This document shows, one piece after another, positions 9,010 through 35,283 of a stretch of DNA of 64,000 bases. Source of the DNA: Granulicella sp. (GTDB lineage: Bacteria; Acidobacteriota; Terriglobia; Terriglobales; Acidobacteriaceae). The notes under the pieces were generated by a model. That model was not told the origin of the DNA and did no database searches. It was given only the letters and a program-made list of their open reading frames with translations. The number at the start of each line of letters is the position of its first letter. The stretch's first letter is position 1. Where the stretch lies: contig DAIDKF010000001.1 of assembly GCA_027450185.1 (NCBI GenBank), forward strand, positions 1 through 64,000, read 5' to 3'. The translations under genes and the position numbers were made by a program.

Positions 9010-9178
9010 TCTGCTGACGGCACGACGAACTTTGCTATTGGACGAGAAAACTTATTGGCTCGGACAGTCTCCGGCGCTGCGCGGGGATTGCGATGAAGTC
9101 CGAGGACTGCCGCGAGCAGGTGAGACGCACACGATTCACGGGTTGGAACTCATTGGCGAGTTTGCATAGAATCTATCA

Positions 9179-9206
9179 TGTAAAACGCTTTAAGAAAAAC
9201 TTGACA
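9179..9206 (+). promoter_or_regulatory. Candidate LacI-type operator (TGTAAAACGCTTTAAGA) next to a TTGACA -35-like box
   Basis: AAACG(C)TTT core at 9179-9195; TTGACA at 9201-9206 upstream of the GH3-GH67-mannonate dehydratase genes. Confidence 0.35.
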
Positions 9207-9489
9207 ACCCTTGATTCAATCTAATAACGTCATCGCGTTCCGACGTTCATTCGCGGAATGTTGCGCAGAGAAGGCGTTGCTTTCGCGCAGAGCGTAAGAC
9301 CAGTAGTCCATGTCCAGATCGCTAGAAGCAGACGATGGACGGATCCATTTGCAGCGCCAGATGGGTCGAATGTGCAAACCGGAGCCCGCCGTTTGGCGCT
9401 GCAGGGAGTTTTACATTCCTTGCGTGCCTGGGGGGTATCGCATTCTCAACGAGTACTGTTGCGAAATATGAGCAACTGAAAGCAGCCTG

Positions 9490-12174: not shown

Positions 12175-14750
12175 GGGTGAGCGGGGAGAGTATGACACTA
12201 CGCGCGACGCTTGCGGCGGTAATGCTGTTGTTAGCCGCGAGGTGCGATGGCGTTGCGCAGATGCGGCTGGGTGCGGGGGAGCCGGCGTGGCTGGCGTATG
12301 GGCCGGTGCATGCTGTGGCGGTGTTTCCGGGCGGTATTCCAGACACGATTGTTGAGCTTGGCCACGACGTGCTTGAGGAGTCTGCAGCACGAGAACTGGC
12401 ACTGGGATGGCGAGGCATGTTGCGGCATGAGCCGCGCGTGGTGCGCAGTCCTGGCGCTGAGTTCAACGAGGGCGTTGTGATCGGAACGCAAGCTGAGGTT
12501 GCTTTGTGGAGGCCGCGATTGAGGCGCGAACAACCGCTCGCGCCGGACGGCTACAGGCTGTATCGTGATGGCGGATTTCTGGTGATTGAGGGAGGAGATG
12601 CCCGCGGAGTTCTTTACGGAGGCTTTGCGCTGCTGCGACTGATCGCCGAAGAGCATTCACTCGCGTCGCTGGATGAGGCGTCTGCTCCGTGGGCGGCGGT
12701 GCGCTGGACGAACGAATGGGATAATCCCAACGGCACCATTGAGAGGGGATATGCGGGGCCGTCGATATTCTTCGAAGGAGGGAAGGTGCGAGCGGACCTG
12801 ACTCGCGCCGCAGCGTATGCGCGGCTGCTGAGTTCGGTAGGCATTGATGGGTGCACCATCAACAACGTTAATGCGGCCATCGATTTGCTCACGCCGGAGA
12901 AGATCAAGGACATTGCGCGGATCGCGGATGTGTTTCGCCCCTACGGTGTGCGGCTTTCGCTCTCGGTGGATATGAGCAGCCCGAAGGTCGTTGGCGGCTT
13001 GAAGACTTTCGACCCGCTGGATCCAGAGGTCGCAGCATGGTGGAAGGCGAAGGTTGACGAGATCTACGCAGCGATTCCAGACTTTGGCGGAGTTGTGATC
13101 AAGGCGGATTCTGAAGGTAGAGTCGGGCCATCGCAGTATGGCCGCAGCCAGTCGGATGCTGCGAATGTTGTGGCGCGCGCGCTGAGGCCGCATGGGGGTG
13201 TGGTGCTGTATCGCGCGTTCGTCTATAACAATCATCTCGACTGGCATGACATGAAGGCGGACCGGGCTCGGGCTGGCTATGACATCTTCCACCCTCTGGA
13301 TGGCAGGTTTGACGACAACGTGATTGTGCAGATCAAGCACGGGCCGATTGATTTTCAGGTGCGCGAGCCGGTGAGCCCGCTCTTCGCCGGTCTGCCTGAT
13401 ACCAACGAGGCGATCGAGTTGCAGATTACGCAGGAGTATACGGGACAGCAGCGGCATCTTGTGTACCTGGTGCCGATGTGGAAGGAAGCGCTCGACACGG
13501 ATATGCGCGCATCGTCAACGGCAGCGGCATTGCCGGTAAAGCTGATCGTGAGCGGGAGGATGGTGGGAACGGAACACCATACGACGGGTGGCTTTGTGGG
13601 AGTCTCAGGCGTAGGCACTGACGGATGGTTGGGCAGCCCGCTGGCGATGGCGAACCTCTACGGCTTTGGACGGCTGGCGTGGGATCCGAACCTGAGCGCA
13701 GCGGCCATCAGCGATGAGTGGACGCGGCTCAGCTTCGGTAACGATGCTGAGGTGCGCGGGGCAATCAATCAGTTGGAACTCAACTCCTGGCACATCTATG
13801 AGAGCTACACGGGACCGCTTGGCTTGGGAACGCTGACTGATATTGTTGGCTCTCACTTTGGCCCGGGGATCGAGTCTGCCGAGCGCAATGGGTGGGGGCA
13901 GTGGATTCGTGCTGACCATGATGGCGTCGGCATGGATCGGACGGTCGCAACCGGCACTGGATATATCGGCCAGTATCCTGCGCTGCTTGCTGCAAAGTAT
14001 GAGTCGCTTGCGACGTGCCCGGATGACCTGCTGCTATTTATGCATCACGTGCCCTATACGTACCGCCTGCGCTCCGGCGAGACGGTGATACAGCATATCT
14101 ACGATACGCACTACCGGGGTGCGCAGGCCGCAGCCGCGCAGGTCCCGGCGTGGGAGCAGCTCCAGGGGAAGGTTCCGGATGCGACCTACGCGGAGGTGCT
14201 CAGGCGACTCAAGTTTCAGGCCGGGGCAGCAATTGTCTGGCGTGATGCCGTCACGATGTGGTTCGCCAAGGAGTCCGGTATACCCGATGCGCTGGGGCGC
14301 GTGGGACATTATGCGGGACGTGTCGAGGCGGAGTCCATGCAACTGAATGGGTACAAAGTAGCGGAGGTGACGCCGTGGGAGACGGCCTCGGGCGGGAACG
14401 CTGTGATCTGCGAGTTGGCCGAGTGTTCTGTTGAGACGACCTGGGACAAGGCAGATGGCTGGTACGATGTCACGGTGCAGTATTTCGATCTGCTGCATGG
14501 GCACTCACGGTTTTCGCTTTCGGTTGCCGGCAACGAGGTTGAGCACTGGATTGCTGATGACAGGTTGCCGGGAGACACGCTCAATGGGAGCACCTCGACG
14601 CGGCGGGTGTTGAATCGCGTGGCGATCCATCGAGGCGATCGTATCCGCGTGACGGGGTGGCCGGACGGGCCAGAGCCTGCTCCGCTTGATTATCTGGAGA
14701 TTGTACCGAGCGCGGTTCATTCGACCACGAAGAAAGATGCAACTCATTGA
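12171..14750 (+). CDS. aguA: GH67 alpha-glucuronidase
   Basis: [80 protein letters not shown]. Confidence 0.93.
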
Positions 14751-14761
14751 GGAAAGCTCCG

Positions 14762-15976
14762 ATGAACACAACAATTTTGGATGCCAGGGTCATCGTTACA
14801 TGCCCTGGACGGAACTTCGTCACACTGAAGATTACGACCGCGGATGGAGTGTATGGCATCGGGGATGGAACGCTGAATGGACGTGAGCTGGCTGTGGTTG
14901 CGTATCTGCAGGAACATGTGATTCCGTGCCTGATCGGTCGAGACGCCGATCGTATAGAAGACACGTGGCAGTACCTGTATCGCGGTGCGTATTGGCGTCG
15001 CGGACCGGTGACGATGAGCGCGATTGCGGCGGTGGATGTGGCGCTGTGGGACATCAAGGCCAAGCGCGCGGAGATGCCGCTGTATCAGTTGCTCGGAGGA
15101 CGCTGCCGCGAGGGCGTGAGGGTGTATGCGCATGCCAATGGACATGAGATCAGCGATCTTCTGGAGTCGGTGGCGAAGCATCGGGAGCTTGGCTATCAGG
15201 CGATTCGCGTGCAGGCGGCGGTGCCGGGGGTTGCCGATGCGTATGGCGTTCCGCACGGAGAGAAGCCCTATGAACCTGCGGATGGAGATCTGCCGCGCGA
15301 AGAGACGTGGGACACGGCGAAGTACCTTCGCTTCATGCCGAAGCTGATGGATGCTGTGCGTTCGAAGTTTGGTTTCGACCTGGCGGTGCTTCATGATGGA
15401 CATCACCGCATGACGCCGATCGAGGCTGCTTCGCTGGGAAAGAGTCTTGAAGAGTTTCAGCCCTTCTGGCTTGAAGACCTGACACCTGCGGAAAATCAGG
15501 AGTCGTTCCGGCTGATACGTCAGCACACGACGGCGCCGTTGGCTGTGGGCGAAGTGTTCAACTCGATCTTCGACTGCCAGCGCCTGATCGGCGAGCAGTT
15601 GATCGATTACATTCGCACGACGGTTGTCCATGCCGGAGGCATAACGCATATGCGACGCATTGCCAGCTTCGCTGATCTGTATGGCGTGAAGACGGGAAGT
15701 CATGGAGCAACCGATCTGTCGCCGGTGTGCATGGGTGCAGCGTTGCACTTCGATCTCAGTATTCCCAACTTCGGAATTCAGGAACACATGCCGCATACTG
15801 CGCTTACCGATGAGGTGTTTCCGCACGCGTACAGCTTCGCCGGTGGGATGATGAACCCGGGAGAGGCGCACGGCCATGGCGTCGATATCAACGAAGAGCT
15901 GGCGACAAAGTTTCCGTATAAGCGCGCGTACCTCCCCGTATGTCGGCTGAAGGACGGCACGATGCACAGTTGGTAG
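14762..15976 (+). CDS. Enolase-superfamily D-mannonate dehydratase (ManD/RspA-like)
   Basis: [64 protein letters not shown]. Confidence 0.9.
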
Positions 15977-16073
15977 CAATGAATCTGGTTGGCTTACTGT
16001 TGTGTGCCGGCATGCTGCGATGAATATAGGCAGCACTTGCATTTAGGTGGCTGTGCGGAGCATACTTGCACAT

Positions 16074-16160
16074 ATGATTCTCTGCTCCACCCCGGTTACG
16101 TCCATGGCCATGTGTATGCCCATGTGTCGCTGCCTGTGGGTGCGAGTGGGAACTGTCTGA
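16074..16160 (+). CDS. Putative Met/Cys-rich attenuator leader peptide, 28 aa (MILCSTPVTSMAMCMPMCRCLWVRVGTV)
   Basis: ATG 16074 to TGA 16158-16160; 5 Met and 4 Cys in 28 residues, clustered as MAMCMPMCRC; followed by a terminator-like hairpin before metY. Confidence 0.68.
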   Translation: MILCSTPVTSMAMCMPMCRCLWVRVGTV

Positions 16161-16193
16161 TGCGCTAAACGCAGACAAGATCAGATTCCAAAC

Positions 16194-16227
16194 GGCTCAC
16201 GGTCCTCAACAGGATGGTGGGCCTTTT
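16194..16227 (+). terminator. Terminator-like hairpin in the metY leader (candidate attenuator)
   Basis: GGCTCAC(16194-16200)/GTGGGCC(16217-16223), inner TCCT/AGGA with CAAC loop, then TTTT. Confidence 0.7.
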
Positions 16228-16281
16228 CGTTGCAGAACGTTACTTGCTTCATCCAAATTTATTGAACCGACAAAGGAGTAG

Positions 16282-18716
<2,435 letters not shown>

Positions 18717-18782
18717 CCATGCAATGAGGGTGGGCCCTGCGTGCCATGGCTGTGGTGCCTGACTGTTTCGATTGTGGGTAAG

Positions 18783-18805
18783 TGGTGGACGCGGTAGGGA
18801 TCGAA
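18783..18805 (-). repeat. 23-bp copy of the tRNA-Lys(CTT) 3' end, candidate att repeat
   Basis: TGGTGGACGCGGTAGGGATCGAA identical to 29349-29371 in the same orientation; no rest of a tRNA adjoins it. Confidence 0.85.
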
Positions 18806-19109
18806 TACGTGGCGTCTGGTGGATCACCCTTGTCTCCAAAGAAGACACTTGCCTCGGTGGGATAAAAGGTGTCGCTGACCCCTGCCGATGCGCCATCTGT
18901 TTCAGACACAGATGGGCGGCAGAGGGCAACGGGTTTGTGCGATGTCCAGCATCCTGCGCAGGGTTGCATAGTGCGGCGGTAGGGCTCGCTGCCAATCCAT
19001 GCGCTCTGCCCAGTTGCGTTGCGACCAAACCGTCTCTGGATGCGTGAGCAGGGTCTGTTCTTTCCCTAACACTGCATGGTCCGTACTCATTGCGAAGCAG
19101 CCTCTGTCG

Positions 19110-20558
19110 CTAGTCGTGTGCCGAGCCTGTGGAGTTGTACAGATCTGGATAAGGCTGTGTTGCGACGATAGGGTCATCACCAACGACTTGCATAAGGTGC
19201 ACGTTCGCACGCGTGAGAGTGAACTCAGGTGGGGGACCGCTGGTTAGCGGAAGTTGGGCGTCGGTGGAACCGGCGGGCAGAGCGATGGTCTGCATGGAAG
19301 TCCCAATTGTGACGCGGATTTCGGCTGGTGCGGTGAGATTTGCTGTGATATAGAGGGCGTTGGCGACGGGCCCGTAGAGGTTGATGGGTGGTTGGTGTGC
19401 GATGGAGAGGACGGTGCGATAGGCCCAATAGATGGTGTCGTGCTCAAGGATGGGTTGGCGACCGGTCTTGTACCACTGGATGAAGTAGGAGAGGAGATTC
19501 GTTACGCCGCGGTGACTGTGAAAAAAGTGAAGAGTAGAGGGCGGAGCAATGCTGGCACCGAGGTCGTTGGCGCCGGGATAGAGGGCAGGGTCGTTGATGG
19601 GGCTGACGTAGGTGCCTTCGATGAAGTCGTTCCAAGTGATGATCTCGACCCAGTCAGGGTGGGTCGTCTGGATTGCCTGCATCCAGAGGGCGCGCATGCC
19701 GGAGTACCCGCTGTACTCATAGTAGCGGTTCGCGTTGGCTGCCCAGAACTGGAAGGCAATGGGTGCCATATAGAGCTTGCACGCGGCGTGGAGGGAGACA
19801 GCGTAGGTGGCGGAGGATAGGAGCTGGTCGGGCGGATGGCCGAGACCGGGGACGCCGGCGATGCCCCAGTAGAAAGCTCCATCGAGGATGTGCTGGTAAG
19901 GTGCTATGCCGTTGACAATATCGTCAGGGGTTGGTGTTTCGCCACCCCAGAAAAAGGAGGGGACAAGGAAGACAGGAAGGGGTGCGCTGGAGGGAACGCC
20001 TGCGGCGGGAGCGAGCGCGTTGGGTGCAGGAACGAGCGATGGAGTGGTGCCGTGCTCGAAGTCGTCGCGGAGCTGCTGCCAGAAGCGCGGTCCACGGCTG
20101 GAGCCGGCGAAGGTTGTAAGGACGAAGCGGCCGTTGTGCCGGAAGCAGATCGTCGCATAGCGGGGATTGTTGGCGAAGCGGCGGACCATGTCGAGAATGT
20201 CGGGAGCGTCGTTGGAGCAACACATGTCGGCCGAAAACATGAGCTTGAACCCGGAGTGGAGGCGATAGGCGGCTTCAAACATCTCTGAAGCGCGGCGGAT
20301 ATAGCGGGGCTCTTTGAACCAGCCGCCGGCGTTGAGGGCGAAGCCGTCGATGCCGATGGATTGGGCTTGCTGGATCTCGCGCTCGTAGGAGGCGATGTTA
20401 GTCGCACCGGTGGGGGTGTCGGCGGTGTAGTCCTGATTGGCGAGCATGTAGTGTGCGAACACGAGACGCTGTGCGCACAGGGAACAGGGTGTGAATAAAC
20501 ATAAGGTCGCCAAGAGGTGCGAGGCGAAGAGACAGACGCGTTGACGCGTGCATAACAT
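19110..20558 (-). CDS. GH71-family glycoside hydrolase (alpha-1,3-glucanase-like), secreted
   Basis: Signal-like N-terminus; VFAHYMLANQDYTADT; QSIGIDGFALNAGG; YSGMRALWMQAIQTTHPDWVEIITWNDFIEGTYVSP. Confidence 0.8.
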   Translation of the reverse strand: MLCTRQRVCLFASHLLATLCLFTPCSLCAQRLVFAHYMLANQDYTADTPTGATNIASYEREIQQAQSIGIDGFALNAGGWFKEPRYIRRASEMFEAAYRLHSGFKLMFSADMCCSNDAPDILDMVRRFANNPRYATICFRHNGRFVLTTFAGSSRGPRFWQQLRDDFEHGTTPSLVPAPNALAPAAGVPSSAPLPVFLVPSFFWGGETPTPDDIVNGIAPYQHILDGAFYWGIAGVPGLGHPPDQLLSSATYAVSLHAACKLYMAPIAFQFWAANANRYYEYSGYSGMRALWMQAIQTTHPDWVEIITWNDFIEGTYVSPINDPALYPGANDLGASIAPPSTLHFFHSHRGVTNLLSYFIQWYKTGRQPILEHDTIYWAYRTVLSIAHQPPINLYGPVANALYITANLTAPAEIRVTIGTSMQTIALPAGSTDAQLPLTSGPPPEFTLTRANVHLMQVVGDDPIVATQPYPDLYNSTGSAHD

Positions 20559-20621
20559 GCAAATGAACTTACCAGAAGGCTGGTCGATTGTCAGAATCAG
20601 AAGACGATCTAAGGTTCGAAC

Positions 20622-21899
20622 TTACCAAAAGTAGGTGGCAACCACTTTTGGCGGAGAGGAACTGCCGTCGATGATCTCAGTACTGAGGACAACTTCCATA
20701 TTCTTCTGGTCCCAGCCTTTGGGGGCATAGGCTCTGATGGCGTCCATTTCACCGGGCTGAGTGAGGAACTCACCGGCGGCGACGGTGCCACCGCGCGCGA
20801 TGCCGGCGGCGACGATGGCAAACTTGCCGGTATTGGGGTCGCGAAAGCGGGCGACAATGGCGTAGTCGCGGTAGTTGTGGGTCGTCTGTTGGACTTCGCG
20901 GTCGATGCTCCAGCGGAGTTGTTGACGAGACTGCGTGTCTTCGATCCAGAAGTGGGTCATGCCGGGATCGTTACCGAAACGATAGCGAAGATCGTGGGTC
21001 ATGCGCAGCGTCCAGGCATTGTCAAAGGCACCGAGGAAGATGGTGGGGCCCTGGCGCAGATCGGTGAGAGTGGCCGTGCCCTCGTCGAGCAGAGTGTAGC
21101 GGCTGCGATGCATCTCCAGGATTCCAGAGAGGCTCATGAGGGGCTGGAGATCGTCGAGTACAACGCCACGCATCTGCTCGTCGAGATGTCGCTCCTGCGT
21201 TGGGGCGGTGGCGTCAAGGAGGGTTTGGCCTGTGAACGTGCTCTGGGGAAAGCAGAGCGCAATGGGGTCCGATGATCCGAAGACAGGGGCCCAGAATTTA
21301 TCGAGTGTGGAGAGACGCGAGGTGAACCAGTACCCGCAACTAACAGTTACAGCGACGATGAGCACCGGGACGATCACCAGCCAGTGGATGTGGGGCCGAG
21401 TGCGCGATGAAGTGGCGGAGTGTGCGATTGTGTCAGGAGCATCTTTAGTGGAGATGAAACCGTTGGCATGCGGTGGATAGGATGCAACCGGCGCAATGGG
21501 GGCCGACGAAGAAGCGGCATGGGGCCATTCAAAGTGGGGAATGTAGGAACCAGGGGGAAGCGAGATGCGTAGCTCGTTGTGGGTCTCCGTGTCCTGATAG
21601 TACTGGGCGATGCGCTTGCGAATTTCGGCGGCGGTGACACGGACGATGGGGTCGGAGGTGGTATCGTAGCCGGCATTGCGTCCAAAGACTTCAATGCCCA
21701 GCGTACGTTCCTTCAGCAGGTCGCTGCGGCCTTCAAGCTCTTCCTGGACGACGTAACGGAGAAAGCTGGGGAATCGTTTGCTATGGGAGAAGTGCTGGTT
21801 ATCCAGAAGGCGGTCCAACTGGCGCAGAATGTCAACCTTCTCTTGTTCGCCATACACGGGTACTGAAACGCTCTTGTAGTCCGCCATATATCTCGCCAA
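20622..21899 (-). CDS. Membrane-spanning regulator-like protein of a type often annotated 'adenylate cyclase-like' in Acidobacteriota
   Basis: N-terminal LLKERTLGIEVFGRNAGYDTTSDPIVRVTAAEIRKRIAQYY; one predicted TM segment IHWLVIVPVLIVAVTVSCGYWF; extracytoplasmic C-terminal half. Confidence 0.6.
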   Translation of the reverse strand: MARYMADYKSVSVPVYGEQEKVDILRQLDRLLDNQHFSHSKRFPSFLRYVVQEELEGRSDLLKERTLGIEVFGRNAGYDTTSDPIVRVTAAEIRKRIAQYYQDTETHNELRISLPPGSYIPHFEWPHAASSSAPIAPVASYPPHANGFISTKDAPDTIAHSATSSRTRPHIHWLVIVPVLIVAVTVSCGYWFTSRLSTLDKFWAPVFGSSDPIALCFPQSTFTGQTLLDATAPTQERHLDEQMRGVVLDDLQPLMSLSGILEMHRSRYTLLDEGTATLTDLRQGPTIFLGAFDNAWTLRMTHDLRYRFGNDPGMTHFWIEDTQSRQQLRWSIDREVQQTTHNYRDYAIVARFRDPNTGKFAIVAAGIARGGTVAAGEFLTQPGEMDAIRAYAPKGWDQKNMEVVLSTEIIDGSSSPPKVVATYFW

Positions 21900-22122
21900 G
21901 GGCGGATTATACCGTCTTCTGAATATCTTTGTCTCGCACTGAAAGCGATGATTTTCCCAATGTTTTAGCGATTCTTATCAGGATAAGAGATTGTGCATTA
22001 CCGAAAGGCTCTAGACAGTGTCAGGGGTGAAACTTATAACCGGGCAATGCTTGAAGTCAACTGTAGTTCTACACACGAGTCATCCCGGCTTCAAGAGAAG
22101 CAGGCCAAATTTTGGAGGCAAT

Positions 22123-25100
22123 ATGAACCGCAATCTTATAGAGATTGACGCAACTTACTTCTGGATCATCCGGAGATACCGTTACGTCCTCAGCTTTTCC
22201 GTCTGCCTGATGTTGCTGGTCATGCTGTGTAGTTCGGCGTGGGGCCAGGTGGGCACCGCCTCATTGAGCAGCATTGTGCAGGACCAGACCGGGGCGATTG
22301 TTCCGGGCGCCAAGGTGACTATCCGGAACACGACTAGCGGAGCGCAACGGTCGTTGCAGAGCAATGGAGCAGGGTCGTTTACCTTCTCGGCGCTTCCCAG
22401 CGGCGACTATACACTGACGGTGGAACACAGGGGATTTAAGCAATTGGTCCATCCGGAGATTCATCTGAACCCAGGGGACAGCCTGGCGCTTCCAGATGTG
22501 CGCCTAAGCTTGGGAGATGTGAGCGAAAGCGTTACGGTGAGTACGACGGTGGCAGGGTTGCCGCTGGATAGCGGCCAGCTAAGCTCGACGATTACATCGA
22601 ACGATCTGGAGCGGCTCTCGGTGGTGGGGCGTGATTCGACGGAACTGGAACGCATTCTGCCGGGGTTTGCTATCCGCAACCTAGCGTCGACGAACGCGGC
22701 GCCGGACTATACGCAGGTGGAGATAGGGCAGCCGACGCCATATGCGTCGAATGGCTCGCCGGTGGCAGGCATCACCCTGACGCTGGATGGTGCGAACCTG
22801 ACAGATGCTGGAAACTTCGGGGCGGCGCTGCAGAATATCGACAACTCATTTGTAAGCGAGGTGCAGGTGCAGACGTCGAACTTCGGTGCGGACCAATCGA
22901 ACGGCCCAGTAGTGATCACGGGAGTGACGAAGTCGGGCACGGATAAATATCACGGGTCGGTATACACGTACGCACGCACGTATCAGTTGGACGCTAACGA
23001 CTGGCTGGCGAACTATGACGGCATTGCACGACCCGATGACCGTTATGTGTATCCGGGTGGAACAATCAGCGGACCTGTTCCGCATACAAAGAAAGTTACG
23101 TTCTTCGCTGGCGCAGAGTATGACGCACAGCGCAATATTTATGCGTATGGCAGCTCGGGTAGCGCGATCATCCATGCATTGGTGCCCACTGCCGCGATGC
23201 GTGCGGGCGACTTCAGCCAGGCTGCGTTGGCGGCGTACCTGGGACCAGAGATAAACAATGGGAATTATGGGACGTTCAATGTTGCCCCGACTGTGGGTGA
23301 CGATGGATCAGCGCTGAGCAACGGTAATATTGCGGCGTTTCTGAATCCTGGAGCGATGGCGTTGGTAAATGGCACGCTTCCGTTGCCGACACGGCAGCAG
23401 ACGGGCACGGACGGGTTCAACTACGATGCGCAGAACCTGGTGAACAACAATGTGAGCCAGTTTGTTGGTCGCGTGGATTACAGTGTCACGCCACGCAACA
23501 TTTTCTTCGCGCGGTACAGCTTTGAAAAACAGAAGCAGGGAGAGCCGGAGGTCCCGTATTATTCGCCAGCGTCTTCCAGTGTGATGGGAGGGGTGAATAC
23601 TCCTGGCTATGGCGTGGATAATAACGTGTGGGTGCACAGCGGTGCTGCCAACTACGTGACCCAGTTTACGCCGACGCTGACCAACGAGATGTATGCCACC
23701 ATTACAGCGTTTACGGAGTCGTTTGCAGCGCGAGAGATCGCTGCGCTGCAGAAGACGGGAATCAACTATCCGTATAACGGCGCATTCAACAATAACGATA
23801 CGCAGTATCCGCAGCTAGGAACTTATACGACCTATGGCGGCTTACCTCTGGGGTTGTGGCCGGACTACTCGGAAAACCCGCTAGAGCTAAAGAAGCTGCA
23901 ACCGAACGTCGGCGACAACCTGACCAAGGTGTGGGGTAAGCATACGGTTAAGATCGGCATCTTCAGCCAGCGTACAACCAACAACCAGACGGCGACCAAT
24001 CCTGCGACCAACGGCATCATCCAGGACTACTACTACGGACCTGCGGGAGCGTACTTTGCGGATTACAACGGCACGTATCCGGATGGATCGCCGGCGTATG
24101 GAAAGCCGCACTACAACAGCGGCAATGCGCTGGCGAACTTCTTTGAAGGGCAGATTCAGGATTGGCATCAGCAGAATTTCAATCCTTATACAGACCTGTA
24201 TTTCTGGAACACGGACTTTTACTTGCAGGATACGTGGCATGCAGCATCGAATTTTGTTGTGACCTATGGCGCACGCATTAGCAAGCTGGGTGCGTGGCAG
24301 GATGCGCATGGGATTGGCGCTGCGATCTGGAACCCAGCGCTATACACCTCCACTTACAACGCAACGACAAATCCTCTGCCCGGCATTACGTGGCATGCGG
24401 TTACACCGTCGGTTCCGAACTCTGGTACAGCAGCGCCGCCGCTTTACTTTGAGCCACGCGTCGGATTCTCCTTTGACGTTTTCAAGAACGGAAATACGGT
24501 GCTGCGTGGCGGAGTGGGTGTGTATCGCTTCCATGATTCGGTAACAGATGTGACGAGCCAGTTTGCCGAGGCGGAGAACGTCCGATACACCGATCTGCAA
24601 GGCTTTGGCGATAACACGCTGGAAGGCGTGAATACGCTTCACCTGAATCCGAACACATATGGAGATACGGGCCCAGGCAGCACGGAGACGTATATCTCTC
24701 CGTCGACGATCTATGGGCTCGATCCGACTGACAACAAGGAGCCTGTGACGAATAACTACAGCCTCAGTGTGGCGCAGAAGATGCCGGGCAACTGGATTCT
24801 GCAGGTTTCCTATGCGGGCAACAATACTAATTCCATGATGGACAACGGCACTACGCAGCCCGTGGTGCTGGATAACGTGAACGCGATCCCCGTGGGAACG
24901 TTGTTCACGGCAGCGGCAGCAACGGCAATTAATGCAGCTGCGGGTTACGATGCCTGCAATCCGACAGGTTGCACTCCGGTGCAGGCGGCGAGCCTAGATA
25001 ACATCTACAACTACACCGGCGACAAGGCTGTTCAAAAGGCGAGGCCTTATCCCAATTACAGCCAGATTCTTGTACCAAGGCACAACACATACGCGAACTA

Positions 25101-25911
25101 TAACGGGCTCCAGATCGTAGCGATTAAGCAGGCAGGCAAGTTCAACTTCAATGCGAACTACTCGTTCTCCAAGGCTCTCGGTATTCTGGGTTCGTCGGCG
25201 GATTTTAACTGGACAGCCGGCATCGACCCCTTCCATCTGCAGAATAACTATGGGCCGTTGAACTTCGACCGTTCGCAGGTACTGAACCTGAGCTACTCGT
25301 ATCAGACAGGCAAATATACGGACGCGCGGCTACTGGGCGGCTTCATCAACGGCTGGCTGATCTCGGGAATTACGAATATCCAGAGCGGACCGAATATGCA
25401 GACGGGAGTGAGCCCTTCGCCGGGCTACTACCTGCAGGGTAATATCGGGCAGGGTGCGACGGCATATCCAGTGGAGTCACAGTCGATTCTTGGAACTCCG
25501 GACGTAAACCTGCAGCCGGTGCTGACGTGCAATCCGGCGAAGGGCCTGACAACACATCAGTACCTGAACCCAAACTGCTTTGCGTTGCCGGCGATTGGAA
25601 CCAACGGTCAGTACATCGAGCCCTACGCTCACGGGCCGGCGTTCTTCAACACCGACTTGACACTGGAGAAGAGCATTGGGTTGGGAGACGGGCGCAGTCT
25701 GCACATTCGGTATGCGGCGTTCAACTTCATCAACCATGGGCTGAACAGCTTTGGAACGGGATATGCTTCGCAGACTACGCTGCAGTTGAGCGACACGTCA
25801 CCAAATGGGTCTCCTGCAACGGCAACGTATAACCCGAGTGAGGGTTTTGGATCGGCTCCGTTGAAACTTGGGAGGAGGGTGTCCGAAGTTTCGCTGGTGT
25901 ATTCGTTCTAG
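22123..25911 (+). CDS. Oar-like TonB-dependent receptor with carboxypeptidase-regulatory-like domain
   Basis: GTASLSSIVQDQTGAIVPGAKVTIRNTTSG; PVVITGVTKSGTDKYHGSVYTYART; C-terminal aromatic SLVYSF. ORF opens at 22018; ATG 22123 precedes the signal-like segment. Confidence 0.9.
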   Translation: MNRNLIEIDATYFWIIRRYRYVLSFSVCLMLLVMLCSSAWGQVGTASLSSIVQDQTGAIVPGAKVTIRNTTSGAQRSLQSNGAGSFTFSALPSGDYTLTVEHRGFKQLVHPEIHLNPGDSLALPDVRLSLGDVSESVTVSTTVAGLPLDSGQLSSTITSNDLERLSVVGRDSTELERILPGFAIRNLASTNAAPDYTQVEIGQPTPYASNGSPVAGITLTLDGANLTDAGNFGAALQNIDNSFVSEVQVQTSNFGADQSNGPVVITGVTKSGTDKYHGSVYTYARTYQLDANDWLANYDGIARPDDRYVYPGGTISGPVPHTKKVTFFAGAEYDAQRNIYAYGSSGSAIIHALVPTAAMRAGDFSQAALAAYLGPEINNGNYGTFNVAPTVGDDGSALSNGNIAAFLNPGAMALVNGTLPLPTRQQTGTDGFNYDAQNLVNNNVSQFVGRVDYSVTPRNIFFARYSFEKQKQGEPEVPYYSPASSSVMGGVNTPGYGVDNNVWVHSGAANYVTQFTPTLTNEMYATITAFTESFAAREIAALQKTGINYPYNGAFNNNDTQYPQLGTYTTYGGLPLGLWPDYSENPLELKKLQPNVGDNLTKVWGKHTVKIGIFSQRTTNNQTATNPATNGIIQDYYYGPAGAYFADYNGTYPDGSPAYGKPHYNSGNALANFFEGQIQDWHQQNFNPYTDLYFWNTDFYLQDTWHAASNFVVTYGARISKLGAWQDAHGIGAAIWNPALYTSTYNATTNPLPGITWHAVTPSVPNSGTAAPPLYFEPRVGFSFDVFKNGNTVLRGGVGVYRFHDSVTDVTSQFAEAENVRYTDLQGFGDNTLEGVNTLHLNPNTYGDTGPGSTETYISPSTIYGLDPTDNKEPVTNNYSLSVAQKMPGNWILQVSYAGNNTNSMMDNGTTQPVVLDNVNAIPVGTLFTAAAATAINAAAGYDACNPTGCTPVQAASLDNIYNYTGDKAVQKARPYPNYSQILVPRHNTYANYNGLQIVAIKQAGKFNFNANYSFSKALGILGSSADFNWTAGIDPFHLQNNYGPLNFDRSQVLNLSYSYQTGKYTDARLLGGFINGWLISGITNIQSGPNMQTGVSPSPGYYLQGNIGQGATAYPVESQSILGTPDVNLQPVLTCNPAKGLTTHQYLNPNCFALPAIGTNGQYIEPYAHGPAFFNTDLTLEKSIGLGDGRSLHIRYAAFNFINHGLNSFGTGYASQTTLQLSDTSPNGSPATATYNPSEGFGSAPLKLGRRVSEVSLVYSF

Positions 25912-25925
25912 CCATTCTTCAAGCC

Positions 25926-25965
25926 GTGACGGAGAGACATACCGCCGCGGCTTTTTCTTTTAGGG
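25926..25965 (+). terminator. Rho-independent terminator downstream of the TonB receptor
   Basis: AAGCCG...CGCGGCTTTTTCTTTT hairpin followed by a T-rich run. Confidence 0.6.
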
Positions 25966-25971
25966 GACTTT

Positions 25972-28548
25972 GTGGAGAATCAAATATCCGGTCGATGGGT
26001 CTCGGGGTCAATTGCTTCGTTGATTTTGTATGTCGTTGTCGCGGGTATTAGCGCGAGGGCGCAGACACAGGCGAGTGGTGCTGAGGAGGCTGCCAGCTTT
26101 TCGAAGCTGACGTCCTCTGTGGCGTTACGCAACGGGGTAGACCTGCGTGATGGAGGGCTGAGAATGCAGATCACAGCGCTGCGTGATGATGTGCTACGGA
26201 TTCGGGCGTCACGCACAGATGTGTTACCAGAGGATGCGAGCTGGGCGGTGCTGCCGGAGGCGCGAAGAGCATCGGTGGCAGTGCAGCAGGAGAGCAGTGC
26301 ACGTACGGTGCGATTCCGTACTTCGAAATTGGAGGTGAGGGTCGACCGCGCGACGGGATTAATAACTCTTATGGATGCTGAGGGGCATGTGCTGCAACAG
26401 GACGCGGAGCCGATGCAGTTTGAGGGCAAGCGGTTTTGCGCAGCGGAAACGATGCCTCTTGATGAGCACTACTTTGGACTGGGCGATAAGACAGGGGCAT
26501 TTGACCATCGTGAGGAAGCGTTCCGGATGTGGAACACAGACGCTTATGCGTGGCAGGAGTCGACCGATCCGCTGTACAAGAGCATTCCGTTCTACTTGAC
26601 GTATCGCGCGGGTGTGTCGCTGGGCGTGTTGATGGATAACACATGGCCTTCGTCATTTGACTTTGGGAAGACGCTGGAAAACACGATGCAGTATTGTGTG
26701 GATGGGGGGGCGGCGGATGTATACGTGTTGTATGGCCCCACTGCGAAGCAGGTGTTGAAGAGTTATGCATGGCTGACAGGACCGACGCCGCTGCCACCAC
26801 TGTGGACGCTGGGGTTTCAGCAATCACGTTACAGCTATATGACCGAGGCGCGGGTGCTGGAAGTGGCCGAACGGTTGCGCAAGGACCGGATTCCGTCGGA
26901 TGCGATTTATCTGGACATCGACTACCAGAATAAGAATCGACCGTTCACGATCAATACGCAGGCGTTTCCGGATATTCCGGGGATGGTCAAGACGCTGCAT
27001 GAGCAGAAGTTTCATGTGGTGGCGATTACGGACCTGCACATTGCGTACCTGCCGGGACAGGACTATGCGCCGTTCAACAGCGGGATGGCGGGGGATGACT
27101 TTGTAAAGAATCCAGACGGGTCAGTGTATGTGGGAAAGGTTTGGCCAGGGCCGAGCGTATTTCCTGACTTCACGAAGCGGAGTGCGCGGGTGTGGTGGAG
27201 CACGCTGTACAAGGGTTTTACGGAGATGGGTATCGATGGGTTCTGGAATGACATGAATGAGCCTTCGGTGTTCGATGAGTTGAAGACGATGCCGTGTTCG
27301 ACCGTGCATCAGCTCGATGAGCCGGGGTTTGCAGAGCGCACGGCTACGCATTGCGAGATTCATAACGTGTATGGGATGGAGAACTCGCGGGCTACGTTTG
27401 AGGGGCAACTGGCGCTGCGCCCGGATATGCGACCGTTTGTGCTGACTCGCGCGACGTATGCGGGAGGACAGCGTTACGCAGCTACATGGACGGGCGACAA
27501 CTCCGCCACTTGGAATCACCTCCGGCTAACGACTTCGATGCTGAAAAACCTGGGGCTGAGCGGATTTGCACTGGCCGGGGCGGACGTGGGAGGATATGCG
27601 GGCACGCCCACACCAGAGCTGCTGACAAAGTGGATCGAGATTGGCGCGTTCCAGCCGATCGATCGTGATCATGCGGAGAAGGGCACAGGTGACCATGAGG
27701 TATGGGCCAATGGGCTGGCGCAGGAGGATATCCGCCGGCGGTTTATTGAGACACGTTACCGGCTGCTTCCGTACCTCTATACCATTACCGAGGAGGACAC
27801 ACATACGGGCCTGCCGCTGCTGCGGCCGCTATTTTTGGAGTTTCCAGATGCTGCATCTGACCACCACCCTCTGGATGTGGATGTAAATACGTCGGGCGAG
27901 TTCATGGTAGGGCCGGACCTGCTGGTCGCTGCTCCAGCATTCGAGGACAAGGCGGACGACTATGATGCAACACTTCCATCGCGTGGCTGGTATGACTTTT
28001 GGACTGGCAAGGAAGTAGCCGAGGACAAGGAGCAACTGCAAACAGGGGGTATGCTGCCAGGGATCGGCGCAGGACTGGCGTTGCCGACGGTGCGTGTCCA
28101 TCGCGAATTGGCTACACTGCCGGTATTTGTACGGCCCGGAGCGATTATTCCGATGGAGCCGCTAGTGCAGAGTACCGAAGAGCGCCCGAAAGGACCATTG
28201 ACGCTGCGCGTCTTTGCGGGAGCGGACTGCGGCGGGCATCTGTATCAGGATGATGGCCGGAGCTTTGCTTACAAGCAGGGAGCATTTCTTCGCATGAGCT
28301 TTACCTGCGAGGCTACAGCGGACCATCGCCGCGTGAGTGTTCGGGTAGGAAAGCACGAGGGGACGTACCCGGCATGGTGGAAAGAGCTTGCCGTCCAGGT
28401 GAACGGTCTGAATGGAAAAGCCTCAGTGGTTACCGTAAATGGCAAGATCGCTGCACACGTCGACGACGGTCATTCGGTAACAATCGAAACACTGGATGCG
28501 GGTGATGGAATGGATATTGTAGTGCGATCGACGGGCGACGGCCAGTAA
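25972..28548 (+). CDS. GH31 alpha-glucosidase/alpha-xylosidase, secreted (GTG start)
   Basis: FYLTYRAGVSLGVLMDNTWPSSFDFG; GIDGFWNDMNEPSVF; FVLTRATYAGGQRYAATWTGDNSATW. Confidence 0.93.
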   Translation: MENQISGRWVSGSIASLILYVVVAGISARAQTQASGAEEAASFSKLTSSVALRNGVDLRDGGLRMQITALRDDVLRIRASRTDVLPEDASWAVLPEARRASVAVQQESSARTVRFRTSKLEVRVDRATGLITLMDAEGHVLQQDAEPMQFEGKRFCAAETMPLDEHYFGLGDKTGAFDHREEAFRMWNTDAYAWQESTDPLYKSIPFYLTYRAGVSLGVLMDNTWPSSFDFGKTLENTMQYCVDGGAADVYVLYGPTAKQVLKSYAWLTGPTPLPPLWTLGFQQSRYSYMTEARVLEVAERLRKDRIPSDAIYLDIDYQNKNRPFTINTQAFPDIPGMVKTLHEQKFHVVAITDLHIAYLPGQDYAPFNSGMAGDDFVKNPDGSVYVGKVWPGPSVFPDFTKRSARVWWSTLYKGFTEMGIDGFWNDMNEPSVFDELKTMPCSTVHQLDEPGFAERTATHCEIHNVYGMENSRATFEGQLALRPDMRPFVLTRATYAGGQRYAATWTGDNSATWNHLRLTTSMLKNLGLSGFALAGADVGGYAGTPTPELLTKWIEIGAFQPIDRDHAEKGTGDHEVWANGLAQEDIRRRFIETRYRLLPYLYTITEEDTHTGLPLLRPLFLEFPDAASDHHPLDVDVNTSGEFMVGPDLLVAAPAFEDKADDYDATLPSRGWYDFWTGKEVAEDKEQLQTGGMLPGIGAGLALPTVRVHRELATLPVFVRPGAIIPMEPLVQSTEERPKGPLTLRVFAGADCGGHLYQDDGRSFAYKQGAFLRMSFTCEATADHRRVSVRVGKHEGTYPAWWKELAVQVNGLNGKASVVTVNGKIAAHVDDGHSVTIETLDAGDGMDIVVRSTGDGQ

Positions 28549-28578
28549 TGGTCACCTGAATTAAGGACCGGCGCATAT

Positions 28579-29330
28579 TCAGATTTCGAGTAGCGTGAGC
28601 AGATAGGGAGATGCTCCAAACGGCTTTGAGAATTTGCCGTGTTTGACCAGGTTGAGGCGATTCGGTTGAAGGATGGAGAACTGTTGTGCAGCGTGGCCAG
28701 CCCGTTTGCGGTACAGGTCTTCGCCGAAGCCGGGGGCAAGTGCCAGGTGCGGTTTGTTTTCGGTCCTCCAGCGCTGGCGGATCACGGAGTTCAACCGCTC
28801 CGCATCGGAGCTGAGGCTGGTGACGTAGTACCGAATCTCGCGCTCGGTTTTACCGGTGGCCTTGTGATACCGTTCCGACTCGATACGCACCAACACCTGC
28901 AGAGAGGCCATTCGGATGCCTTTTCGATCAGGCCAGGATCGGCCAGCACCGAAGACTTGCGTCGCTCGCCCCGCCCGTGGCCACAGCCGATTTCCTCGGC
29001 CACTGCGTTGGACTCCAACGACAGAAACAAGTCTTTTACCTGTTCGTCAAAAGCTTTCTTCTCCTTGACCGCCAGGACATAGTCGGTTGACTTTGTCGAT
29101 GATCTGGCGGGCGATCCCGAGATGTCAGCCCATGGCGTCAATGGTTACCCGGTTGAACGTATCGTGCGATGAAATGCCTGATGGGAGCGTCAGGAACGCC
29201 TTTACCGCGCCAGCTTATCTTCGCCGAACTCGGCGATGTCGTTCCAAGAGAAAACGGTTCATGTCGCGTTTTACGGTATGGCGTTCAAAACATCGCTGAA
29301 TCAAGCATCGTCTAATTCCGCTATGCTGTT
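28579..29330 (-). pseudogene. Degraded ISAs1-family transposase, frameshifted
   Basis: C-terminal REIRYYVTSLSSDAERLNSVIRQRWRTENKPHLAL...GHAAQQFSILQPNRLNLVKH; middle STDYVLAVKEKKAFDEQVKDLF in another frame; N-terminal FGEDKLAR-like motif further right. Confidence 0.85.
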
Positions 29331-29348
29331 GATCTGAAAAGGAAAGAA

Positions 29349-29424
29349 TGGTGGACGCGGTAGGGATCGAACCTACGACCAGTCGATTAAGAGTCGAATG
29401 CTCTACCAGCTGAGCTACGCGTCC
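29349..29424 (-). tRNA. tRNA-Lys(CTT)
   Basis: GGACGCG/CGCGTCC acceptor, A discriminator, CCA encoded, anticodon loop CTCTTAA, T-loop GTTCGATCC. Confidence 0.97.
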
Positions 29425-29516
29425 AGACCTTGAACCTTGCCGTGGAGGCAAAGAGCGAACTACAGGTAGATCGCCAAGGGATGCGCGGGGAACCTCACCG
29501 CACCTGAAAAGGATAA

Positions 29517-29551
29517 CACGATCCGGCACCCGAGCGCAGCACCGGATCGTG
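29517..29551 (-). terminator. Strong hairpin downstream of mqnD
   Basis: CACGATCCGG...CCGGATCGTG 10-bp perfect stem; weak T-tract. Confidence 0.45.
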
Positions 29552-29588
29552 AGGAAATCAGCGGCCGGACCTGGCAGCCGGCAGAAGG

Positions 29589-30443
29589 TTAGCCAACGAA
29601 GTCGACGTTGGCCTTGTGGGGAATGATGCCGCGTTCGTAGCCCATGTCCAGCAGCTTGCGGATGGCTACACGACCGTCATCGCCATAGTTCAAGGTGCGT
29701 TCGTTGACGTACATGCCGACGAAGCGGTTAGCCATGGAGGGGTCGAGATCACGCGCAAACTGCATGGCATACTCGAGCGCCGCCTCACGGTGATCGAGCG
29801 CGTGCTGGATGCTCTCACGCAGGGCGTTGGTGGTGACCATTTGCACGTCATGGCCGAGGGAACGGCGAATCGCGTTGCCGCCGAGGGGGAGGGGAAGGCC
29901 GGTTTGTTCGTTCCACCAGACGCCGAGATCCAGAATCTTGGTGAGGCCATCGCGGCCATAGGTGAGCTGGCCTTCATGGATAATCAGGCCGGCGTCGAAC
30001 TCGCCCGAGACGACCGCGGGAATGATCTTGTCGAAGTCGACGGTGACGGTCTCGACCTCCGGCGCGAAAAGCTTCAGCGTGAGGTAGGCGGTGGTGAGCG
30101 TTCCGGGGACGGCGATGCGGAGCTTCCTGACCTCGTCGAGGGTGTAATTCTTCGCTGCCACGATCATGGGACCGTAGCTGTCGCCGACCGAGCCACCGCA
30201 TGCCATCAGGGTGTAGTTCTCCTGGACGTAGGGGTAGGCATGGAAGCTGATCGCCGTCACGTCGTAGTACTGATCGGTCATGGCGCGATGGTTCAACGCC
30301 TCGATGTCGGTGAGTGTGTGGGTGAACTTGTAGCCCGGTACGCGCACTTTGTTGGTGGCAAGACCATAGAACATAAAGGCGTCGTCGGAGTCGGGGCTAT
30401 GGGCAATCTTAATCTCGCGAACTTCTGATGCTGCAGTCGTCAT
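29589..30443 (-). CDS. mqnD: MqnD-like 1,4-dihydroxy-6-naphthoate synthase (futalosine menaquinone pathway)
   Basis: EIKIAHSPDSDDAFMFYGLA; DVTAISFHAYPYV; GLIIHEGQLTYGRDGLTKILDLGVWWNEQTGLPLPLGGNAI. Start set at MTTAASEV within the longer ORF. Confidence 0.85.
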   Translation of the reverse strand: MTTAASEVREIKIAHSPDSDDAFMFYGLATNKVRVPGYKFTHTLTDIEALNHRAMTDQYYDVTAISFHAYPYVQENYTLMACGGSVGDSYGPMIVAAKNYTLDEVRKLRIAVPGTLTTAYLTLKLFAPEVETVTVDFDKIIPAVVSGEFDAGLIIHEGQLTYGRDGLTKILDLGVWWNEQTGLPLPLGGNAIRRSLGHDVQMVTTNALRESIQHALDHREAALEYAMQFARDLDPSMANRFVGMYVNERTLNYGDDGRVAIRKLLDMGYERGIIPHKANVDFVG

Positions 30444-30523
30444 GTGTCCCTTTGGAGCTTTGCTTGTTAGGAGGAGTGCGCTGGAGAGCCACTCCTGTTT
30501 GGTCATCCGTGGATGACTGAGAT

Positions 30524-31117
30524 TTAGATGCGTGGAGCGCGGGCCAGGGTGCTGTATACGCCCGCTGCTATCACAACCTTGACGAGTTCCCCGGGGAGAA
30601 AGGGAGCTACGGCGGAGATCCAGGTGGCGTGCAGGGAGAGATGGCCCAGATACATCAACCAGGAGGCGCCAGAGACGATGAGCACGGCCATGGCCAAAGT
30701 TCCAGCCACAAACGCGGCCACAAACCGGGGAGTTCGAGTGGTGAGGCCTCGCGTGAGGGCGCCAACGACGGCCGCCACAAGGGGGTAGGCCATGAGGAAG
30801 CCGCCGGTGGGGCCAAACAACTGCGCCAGACCGCCCAGGCCAGTCGGACTGAAGACGGGAAGGCCCATCGCTCCTTCAGCGAGATAGGCGAGCATGGTCA
30901 GGAAGCCAGCGACGGGGCCGAGTGCCAGACCCACCCCCAACACGGCGAGCGGCTGCAGGGTGAGCGGGACGGGCGTGAAGGGCAGGGGGATCGCAACGTG
31001 AGCTGCTGCTGCGACGACCACCGTGGCGGAGAGGCCGATCAGGATTCTGCCGGGAGTTGTCGCAGCAAAGGCTGTGAGGCTTTGCGTGGGGGAGGAGTGT
31101 ACAGTGGCGGTTTGCAT
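30524..31117 (-). CDS. bioY: BioY-family biotin transporter component
   Basis: IPLPFTPVPLTLQPLAVLGVGLALGPVAGFLTMLAYLAEGAMGLPVFSPTGLGGLAQLFGPTGGFLMAYPL. Confidence 0.92.
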   Translation of the reverse strand: MQTATVHSSPTQSLTAFAATTPGRILIGLSATVVVAAAAHVAIPLPFTPVPLTLQPLAVLGVGLALGPVAGFLTMLAYLAEGAMGLPVFSPTGLGGLAQLFGPTGGFLMAYPLVAAVVGALTRGLTTRTPRFVAAFVAGTLAMAVLIVSGASWLMYLGHLSLHATWISAVAPFLPGELVKVVIAAGVYSTLARAPRI

Positions 31118-31192
31118 AGTGGTCTCTCAGTGTTGAGGGTCTTTCAGCGTTTGAATCACGTGCTTCGAGGGTTACGTCGGTCCTGCTTCGAT

Positions 31193-31342
31193 CTACGGTC
31201 TGCCCTTCACATCGGTGACTGGCTCGTTTTGCGGCTCACGATGATGGAGCCGCCGAGCCTGTTGCACATGCCGTGCAATCGCGACGGAGGCCCAGAGGAG
31301 TGCGACCAGGGCCAGCATCGAGATGAAAAAGAGGACGCGCAT
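31193..31342 (-). CDS. Small membrane protein (49 aa)
   Basis: MRVLFFISMLALVALLWASVAIARHVQQARRLHH..., one TM helix with basic juxtamembrane segment. Confidence 0.4.
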   Translation of the reverse strand: MRVLFFISMLALVALLWASVAIARHVQQARRLHHREPQNEPVTDVKGRP

Positions 31343-31529
31343 GGGGCCCTCCAAGGATACCAAAGCTGGCGGTGCGAAACGAAATGCAGACGGCAGGGAT
31401 ATTGCGCCTGGCGCCGGGTGTCGACGAGTCTGGTTCACGCCGGCGGATACTGGCCCCGCTCCACGCTGGAGTGGGCGATACTTTTACAAAGCCCTGCGTT
31501 GCAGGAGATGAACCGGCGAGGCCCCAGAG

Positions 31530-31940
31530 TTGGCAACCATGCACCATAGATTGAAACTGACCGCGAAGCTGCCGGCACTGGCCGGAGCTGCGAAGGACAG
31601 GGTCTATCTGTGGCGGCGGCGCGGCGCGACGATGGCCACCGGATCCCTTGCGCTGATGATGTTCTATGGCGTCATCTTTGGACATAACGGCGTGACGGCC
31701 TATATACACAAGCGCGAAGAGGCCAGGGAGTTGCAACAACAGATGCAACAGTTGCAGAAAGAAAATGAGCGACTGAATGAGCACATCGATCGCTTGCAGA
31801 GTGATCCAGATGCGATTGAGCATGAGGCTCGCGAAGAACTGCACTACACGCGTGCTGGCGAGGTGATCTACACGCTGCCCGGTGCGGGTGCGGATGCCTC
31901 GAAAGCGACCGGCTCCACCACGCCCAGTTCAAAGCAGTAG
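31530..31940 (+). CDS. Septum formation initiator (FtsB/DivIC-like)
   Basis: One TM plus coiled coil REEARELQQQMQQLQKENERLNEHIDRLQSDPDAIEHEAREELHYTRAGEVIYTLP. Confidence 0.85.
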   Translation: MATMHHRLKLTAKLPALAGAAKDRVYLWRRRGATMATGSLALMMFYGVIFGHNGVTAYIHKREEARELQQQMQQLQKENERLNEHIDRLQSDPDAIEHEAREELHYTRAGEVIYTLPGAGADASKATGSTTPSSKQ

Positions 31941-32416
31941 ATTTCTGCCGATCCTGTTTTGTGGACCTTCATCAGTCAGATGGGAATCCTCCTTTATGGA
32001 TGAGAACGCTCGCGGAAGACTCCTCTGCTAGAAGTCCCGTCCTATTCTGCCGATAGAAATAGATGGCGAGGCTTTCCTGTGGAAGCGAGCGAATATGGGT
32101 ACGGTTCCTGTAGTCAATATTTCTCCACTAACGATTACGCAGTCCGATGAGCCGAGGCTGGAGCCGCTGGTGCCTGTCGCGCGGATAGAGAGCCCGTCCG
32201 CAAGTACGGATGAAACCTACTCGCCCAGCGGAGAGCCGACCGCCAGCGGTTCAGCGGATGGGGAGTCGGAGGATCGATACTCGGAGGATCGATGCGATGA
32301 TTCCGCCGAGGATACCCAAGCGCAGCACTCATCCAACGAGCCGAGCGAGACGCAGGCGATCGACCTGTTCGCGTGAGATTTCAGGCAGGGAGGGACTGAG
32401 GTTCGGGGGGGCTGGA

Positions 32417-32659
32417 CTACAGCGTGGGGGGTGCATGCTGCGCAATCTGCTCGGTCGTTACACCGATGTCGAAGCCGGTAAACAGGTCCGCGATCTGTTT
32501 GTCAGTGAAGCCGCGCTCGCGCAGCATGCGAATCTCGTTATGGAGCATGGCAATAACCTGGCTGGGGGTAAATCGTGCTTCTTCGGTACCGGCGGCCTGG
32601 CGCAACTCTTGAGCGGCGACTGCTACCTGCGCTGAGGTGTATGTGTTCTCGATTGCCAT
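32417..32659 (-). CDS. Conserved-looking small hypothetical protein
   Basis: 80 aa ORF; FTPSQVIAMLHNEIRMLRERGFTDKQIADLFTGFDIGVTTEQIAQ. Confidence 0.5.
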   Translation of the reverse strand: MAIENTYTSAQVAVAAQELRQAAGTEEARFTPSQVIAMLHNEIRMLRERGFTDKQIADLFTGFDIGVTTEQIAQHAPPTL

Positions 32660-32785
32660 GGTACGGCTCCTGGACCGTCAGTGATTGGAATGCTTCATCG
32701 GTGCTCCGGGTTGGTCGAGCTTCGCGCATCAATTCGGAAGTGTAAGCTTGAACAGTTGAAACAACTTTTCCATGGGGGGAATAAC

Positions 32786-33535
32786 ATGATTGTTATCGAT
32801 ACAGAGTATGTTGACCTGGCAACACCCACTGGCCCGATGCGAACCCACATTGTGCGGCCTGCCGCGCCTGGCCGCTACCCCGGCGTTCTGCTCTTCTCTG
32901 AGATCTTTCAGGTGACGGCGCCGATCCATCGCACGGCGCTCCAGTTAGCGGGCCACGGATATGTTGTCGCTGTGCCCGAGGTCTACCACGAGTATGAGCC
33001 GGCCGGCACCGTGCTCAAGTATGACCAGGCCGGCTCCGACCGGGGCAATGCACTGAAGACGACCAAGCCTGTACAGGCTTACGATGACGACGCGAGCGCA
33101 GCGCTTGAATACCTGGCCGGGCGAAGCGACTGCAACGGCCGCCTGGGTGTGATGGGCATCTGCATGGGCGGGCATCTTGCGTTTCGTGCCGCAATGAACC
33201 CTGGGGTCCTTGGCGCCGTGTGCTTCTATGCGACCGACATTCACAAGGGCGGACTTGGTGAAGGCATGAAGGACAACTCCATGGCCCGGGCAGGAGAGAT
33301 CAAGGGCGAACTACTCATGGTATGGGGCCGCCAGGACCCGCACATTCCCACCGAAGGACGCATGAAGGTTCTGGAACGGCTGAACGAGGTGGGAACGCGG
33401 CTGAACTGGCATGAGGTCAACGGCGCGCATGCGTTTCTGCGTGATGAAGGTGTGCGCTACGACCCCGATCTCGCCCGCTCGATGTTTGGCCTGGCGCTGG
33501 ATCTCTTTCACCGTACGATTGCGGTGGGAGCCTAG
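32786..33535 (+). CDS. Dienelactone hydrolase-family protein
   Basis: GRYPGVLLFSEIFQ; LGVMGICMGGHLAFRAA; HEVNGAHAFLRDEG. Start set at ATG 32786. Confidence 0.9.
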   Translation: MIVIDTEYVDLATPTGPMRTHIVRPAAPGRYPGVLLFSEIFQVTAPIHRTALQLAGHGYVVAVPEVYHEYEPAGTVLKYDQAGSDRGNALKTTKPVQAYDDDASAALEYLAGRSDCNGRLGVMGICMGGHLAFRAAMNPGVLGAVCFYATDIHKGGLGEGMKDNSMARAGEIKGELLMVWGRQDPHIPTEGRMKVLERLNEVGTRLNWHEVNGAHAFLRDEGVRYDPDLARSMFGLALDLFHRTIAVGA

Positions 33536-33561
33536 CGACAGCAGCACGTGATTCCTTGCTC

Positions 33562-34398: not shown

Positions 34399-34401
34399 CG
34401 C

Positions 34402-35181: not shown

Positions 35182-35283
35182 GGGTTCGCGCTTGGCTCAG
35201 GGTATCAGATGCAACATGGACTGCTCCCGGTCGCATGTTCGGGAATGGCGTTCGAGAAGCCTCCGGGATGAGAAAATAAAAAG

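Follow-up and report, generated by a model that had tools for sequence, protein, structure and literature searches.

Introduction

Cis-mobilizable elements (CIMEs) are elements that have kept both of their att sites and lost the genes for integration and transfer (PMC5704250, PMC7563491). In Streptococcus agalactiae, 215 CIMEs are reported to lie at the 3' end of tRNA-Lys(CTT), as cited in PMC7563491. Islands of the type collected by Islander (PMC4383910) are recognised by a tRNA gene and a displaced 3' fragment of it, in the right orientation, at a length within 2–200 kb and with the fragment outside conserved coding sequence. Islander also requires an integrase gene within the island, as for a putatively active one. 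The same authors divide the crossover sites in tRNA genes into anticodon-loop, T-loop and T/acceptor-junction types (PMC4383910).

Here, we describe a segment of a Granulicella sp. contig (DAIDKF010000001.1, assembly GCA_027450185.1), analysed within a stretch of 64,000 nt that we call the window. The segment resembles the S. agalactiae CIMEs in its two att repeats at a tRNA 3' end, its cargo-only content and the same tRNA species. It differs from them in belonging to another phylum and in not standing in tandem with a functional element. With the Islander-type islands it shares all of the features listed above except for the integrase gene, which it lacks. The segment fits the CIME description by its sequence, whereas its descent from an integrative conjugative or mobilizable element (ICE or IME) and its mobilisation are conjectural.

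Results

Two copies of the tRNA-Lys(CTT) 3' end bound the segment

The 23-nt sequence TGGTGGACGCGGTAGGGATCGAA occurs exactly, on the plus strand, at 18783–18805 and 29349–29371 of the window, where a sequence-only reading had placed two copies in the same orientation. No third copy was found in the window with up to 3 mismatches allowed, and a search of the whole assembly at up to 2 mismatches (a 2.17-Mb MAG, 54% complete, 145 contigs) returned only these two positions. The chance expectation is zero, with 0 occurrences in 100 shuffles. ARAGORN called an intact tRNA-Lys(CTT) at the right-hand copy and no tRNA at 18783, in agreement with the claim that the left-hand copy has no tRNA body. An intact tRNA gene with a displaced 3' fragment in the same orientation is the arrangement expected of a tRNA-targeted genomic island.

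The repeat covers the 3' end of the tRNA, starting with the first T-loop base (TTCGATC) and finishing with the encoded CCA, and identity between the copies ends at exactly 23 nt in both directions. The left-hand copy falls in the gap that separates the metX stop (18716) from the GH71 gene end (19110), outside both coding sequences. We also considered a decayed 46-nt repeat extending beyond the 23-mer, and rejected it, as the next 60 nt are no more tRNA-like than shuffled sequence (1985 of 2000 shuffles score as high). The features of the locus are collected in Table 1.

Table 1 Features of the tRNA-Lys(CTT) locus in the window, and two genes of the L46 element at the same tRNA.
Feature	Position	Strand	Evidence
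metX, left flank, next to the tRNA in the empty site	17604–18716	+	96% protein identity to G014:C28
Distal att repeat, displaced tRNA-Lys(CTT) 3' end, 23 nt, no tRNA body	18783–18805	-	Exact match; no tRNA call; adjoins metX downstream flank
Inserted segment, 10,543 bp, absent from G014:C28	18806–29348	.	L050 alignment; flanks meet on one repeat copy
GH71 glycoside hydrolase, 482 aa, alpha-1,3-glucanase family, catalytic D-x-x-E in WNDFIEG	19110–20558	-	PF03659, E=9e-51; alignment to solved GH71 enzymes
Membrane protein, 425 aa, putative regulator	20622–21899	-	Conserved beside receptor gene in relatives
Oar/TonB-type outer-membrane protein, 1297 aa	22018–25911	+	OMP_b-brl_4, CarboxypepD_reg
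GH31 alpha-glucosidase-like enzyme, 858 aa	25972–28548	+	Pfam GH31 domains; solved alpha-glucosidases; catalytic motifs
Broken ISAs1 transposase, two overlapping fragments in different frames, internal deletion	28579–29141	-	NF033564 matches both; comparison with G013 copy
Proximal att repeat, 3' end of intact tRNA-Lys	29349–29371	-	Exact match; ARAGORN
Intact tRNA-Lys(CTT), target gene	29349–29424	-	ARAGORN
mqnD, right flank	29589–30506	-	96% protein identity to G014:C28
L46 tyrosine integrase	L054:6259–7452
L46 MobF/TrwC relaxase	L053:12533–15289

The closest relative carries an empty site

The closest relative that we compared is the MAG BP9.bin128 (G014). On one of its contigs (G014:C28, L050) the metX flank runs directly into tRNA-Lys and mqnD with a single copy of the 23-mer, as expected of the empty site of a tRNA-targeted island and exactly as the sequence-only reading had predicted. 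Window positions 8617–18805 align to 1–10201 of this contig at 87% identity and positions 29347–38165 to 10177–19001 at 85% identity, and the two alignments overlap on the contig by 25 nt, which is the repeat. The downstream flank of metX touches the tRNA in G014 and adjoins the displaced left-hand copy in the window. This layout is what integration into the 3' end of a tRNA gene produces: the insert brings a replacement end and displaces the old end together with the native flank. The segment sits where a tRNA-targeting integrase would insert, as had been proposed. Neither a relative with the same gene order without the repeats nor the repeat at 18783 without the interval was found. Because G014 is the only relative with an empty site on collinear flanks, it does not by itself distinguish insertion in the window from precise excision in G014.

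In Granulicella sp. L46 (G001, L054) the gene block at 8646–15976 of the window is inverted relative to tRNA-Lys when compared with the window and G014, and one breakpoint of this inversion lies close to the tRNA 3' end. A homologue of the window sequence at 8647 is also found ~0.5 kb from the tRNA end in genome G004.

The cargo is a predicted alpha-1,3-glucan utilisation locus

The gene content was as first read: a GH71 enzyme, an Oar/TonB-type protein and a GH31 enzyme, supported by Pfam, a membrane protein and a broken ISAs1 (NF033564). The GH71 protein matches PF03659 over its full length (model positions 1–373 of 375), and its closest solved relatives are fungal alpha-1,3-glucanases. Its WNDFIEG motif aligns to WNDYGES of the solved enzymes, keeping the catalytic Asp/Glu pair (PMC12394665). 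The domain coverage and the conserved pair place the protein in GH71, with activity on alpha-1,3-glucan predicted from its sequence. The GH31 protein resembles alpha-glucosidases and keeps the GFWNDMNEP and WTGDN motifs, and the outer-membrane protein comprises an OMP_b-brl_4 barrel and a CarboxypepD_reg domain (Pfam). For the membrane protein, neither Pfam nor NCBIfam gave a match, and its predicted structure was unusable (mean pLDDT of 38); its position suggests a regulator. The first ~120 residues of this protein match many rhizobial plasmid proteins at ~40% identity. An alpha-1,3-glucan utilisation locus is the most economical reading of this putative set, for which the GH71 literature points to fungal cell walls as the likely source of glucan.

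The island lacks an integrase

No Pfam integrase was found among the ORFs examined in the island, and tblastn of the island with four recombinases from relatives gave only chance-level matches, on which ground we rejected integrase relics within it. Both searches bear out the earlier statement that the interval has no recognisable integrase. Genes for recombination and conjugation, whose loss marks a CIME, are absent and would once have been present. The ISAs1 transposase remnant adjoins the tRNA and is without ~265 nt found in the copy from genome G013; rearrangement around this element could have removed an integrase gene. Homologues of the left island end (18806–19109) were sought in 61 genomes and none were found, the matches being to the att region and native flank only.

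tRNA-Lys(CTT) is a repeated integration site in the genus

The 23-mer occurs with at most one mismatch in 24 of the 61 genomes, and a reversed control pattern in none. Two copies are present in five genomes, the window's own, G001, G005, G013 and G016, and in the last four one of the copies has no tRNA body. In Granulicella sp. L46 (G001:C5) the two copies are separated by 18 kb, and genes for a tyrosine integrase and a MobF/TrwC relaxase lie between them. This element has the same tRNA gene and the same 3' end as its target, and differs from the window island in having the integrase and relaxase, in its unrelated cargo and in its 52-nt repeat, which is exact and reaches the anticodon region. 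With regard to ICE/IME descent, the L46 element shows such machinery at the same tRNA, and no ancestor of the window island was found. A Phage_integrase gene adjoins the body-less copy in G013 (L057:2530–3531), another lies ~0.8 kb from that of G016, where the copy and the tRNA are on different contigs and need not bound a tRNA island, and an integrase-like frame lies beside the intact tRNA in G005.

In all four of these genomes the sequence shared with the tRNA reaches the anticodon region. By its end point, the window repeat belongs to the T-loop type, whereas the repeats of the relatives at this tRNA are longer and extend to the anticodon region. Because the window repeat stops cleanly at the T-loop, with no sign of a decayed longer repeat, it is probably the product of another type of integrase than that of the relatives. 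Integration at tRNA-Lys(CTT) has recurred in the genus, apparently with two crossover types, and our limited literature searches turned up no account of this hotspot.

Two further arrangements were observed. An attP-like junction at ~2442–2487 of G013:C76 (L057) links island-end sequence to the tRNA-end repeat and to a tyrosine integrase, and the tRNA-Lys of G013 is on another contig (C217, L047) with a flank that still resembles the native one. This arrangement is possibly a circular or tandem form, or a mixture of strains in the MAG. Elsewhere in the window's own genome (G000:C23, L181, 2844–4273), an integrase-like ORF (2844–4175, plus strand) ends next to a tRNA-Thr(CGT) (4198–4273, minus strand), possibly a second tRNA-associated island.

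Related cassettes occupy other loci

A second contig of G014 (G014:C2) and one of L46 (G001:C8) carry these four genes too, with order and orientation conserved, at 72–85% protein identity. Both lie at loci with different neighbours from the window and from each other, and we found no tRNA near either. The G014 cassette shares a 12-kb contig with genes that resemble transposases and resolvases, and that of L46 lies between an AsmA-like and a pfkA-like gene, while that of the window is at tRNA-Lys. Inspected by eye, the cassette on the G014 contig (L105) lies between an IS1595-like transposase with a serine resolvase (166–1113, 1199–1789) and a piece similar to an IS256-type transposase (12077–12295). 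The alignments between cassettes cover the genes and not the island ends. The AsmA-like neighbour in L46 was sought as a marker of the ancestral position of the cassette, and its nearest matches are only ~43% identical.

We compared the divergence of the cassettes with that of their backbones. The three cassettes are about equidistant (for GH31, 75.5, 75.6 and 76.9%), whereas the backbones of the window and G014 are much closer than those of the window and L46. Differences at four-fold sites between the window and G014 are 0.45–0.61 for the cassette genes and 0.23–0.51 for twelve flanking genes (~0.53 and ~0.34 when pooled); the pooled values between the window and L46 are ~0.56 for the cassette and ~0.60 for the flanks. 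The cassettes of the window and G014 thus exceed the flanks in synonymous divergence by a wide margin, which argues that their two copies were not simply inherited vertically. Fast protein evolution does not by itself account for this excess. A horizontal origin, from inside the genus or close to it, is therefore probable for one or both copies, and a less economical explanation is that alternate ancient paralogues were lost.

The base composition agrees with such a source, the GC content of the island being 56.7% compared to 58.9 and 60.2% in the flanks. The description of a catabolic island stood, and the composition check proposed with it showed near-native rather than foreign DNA. We also considered plasmids as carriers of the cassette and rejected them. 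GH71 gave one match, at 23% identity in an 11.8-Mb actinobacterial record, and relatives of the regulator at 37–39% occur on two Granulicella tundricola plasmids; in the one examined, pACIX901, the relative stands beside a different receptor and different hydrolases.

Discussion

We propose that 18806–29348 is a decayed, CIME-like tRNA island with an alpha-1,3-glucan cassette, which entered by site-specific recombination at the 3' end of tRNA-Lys(CTT), and we give this reading a probability of roughly 0.8. The repeat pair, the empty site and the absence of an integrase support the earlier description of an immobilised catabolic island. The near-native composition, the 54% completeness of the MAG and a substrate that is predicted count against our proposal. 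The incoming DNA would have carried the 23-nt tRNA end, so that the tRNA was rebuilt and its original 3' end came to lie at 18783. The most likely enzyme is a tyrosine integrase that cut in or close to the T-loop; because no integrase is left in the island, its type is judged only from the end point of the repeat. Integrase and transfer genes would then have been lost, perhaps by rearrangement around the now-broken ISAs1 next to the tRNA, leaving a remnant of the cis-mobilizable type, with both att sites retained as two exact 23-nt copies at the ends of the insert and its own enzyme missing. Going by family and position, alpha-1,3-glucan would be cleaved by GH71 outside the cytoplasm; its oligosaccharides would be bound or taken up by the outer-membrane protein and broken down to glucose by GH31, with the membrane protein as the putative regulator of all three.

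Other histories of the segment can be weighed against the same observations. The insert may never have had its own integrase, and as a non-autonomous cassette with one tRNA-end att site may have been integrated in trans by the enzyme of another element. The island has no integrase remnant, the same genome has other integrase genes and integrase-bearing elements use this tRNA in relatives, but we found nothing closely matching such a compact element elsewhere, the broken ISAs1 shows that the tRNA-proximal end was rearranged and the elements of the relatives have anticodon-reaching repeats and not the T-loop type; we consider this unlikely. It is also quite improbable that the tRNA island is older, dating from the common ancestor of G014 and the window species, and that G014 lost it by precise excision, leaving the empty site. 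A clean excision leaves the same-looking empty site, and G014 does keep a cassette elsewhere. However, that cassette is too diverged (79% at the DNA level, pooled four-fold difference of ~0.53) to be the window island moved, and the left-hand repeat is still 23/23 while the nearby non-coding flank has diverged, which weakly favours a fairly recent event.

Arrival by transposition or homologous recombination, with an incidental 23-nt repeat, would fit the transposase remnant in the segment and the transposase-like genes that flank the G014 cassette. We regard it as highly improbable, given that the ends of the insert match the tRNA-end repeats to the base, that the empty site lies between the same points and that the probability of the repeat arising by chance is nil. 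Similarly, a false joining of two MAG pieces at the 23-mer is conceivable in a fragmented assembly of 145 contigs, but would need two false joins at the same 23-mer, exactly mimicking the topology of a tRNA island, in a contig of 178 kb that is collinear with G014 on both sides, and we give it very little credence.

The tRNA island that we favour is well documented but ordinary in kind, and the mechanism itself is textbook. The empty site in a close relative documents the addition, at a precise point, of a complete polysaccharide-use gene set in an acidobacterium, and tRNA-Lys(CTT) offers a concrete place to seek mobile elements in a group where such elements are little mapped. More speculatively, and in our view doubtfully, the cassette may be a non-autonomous catabolic unit, relocating within the genus with the help of other elements' integrases, in trans or through accretion; its sites would be the tRNA-Lys T-loop in the window, a transposase-rich region in G014 and another site in L46. 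If so, alpha-1,3-glucan use would be an exchangeable trait among soil acidobacteria.
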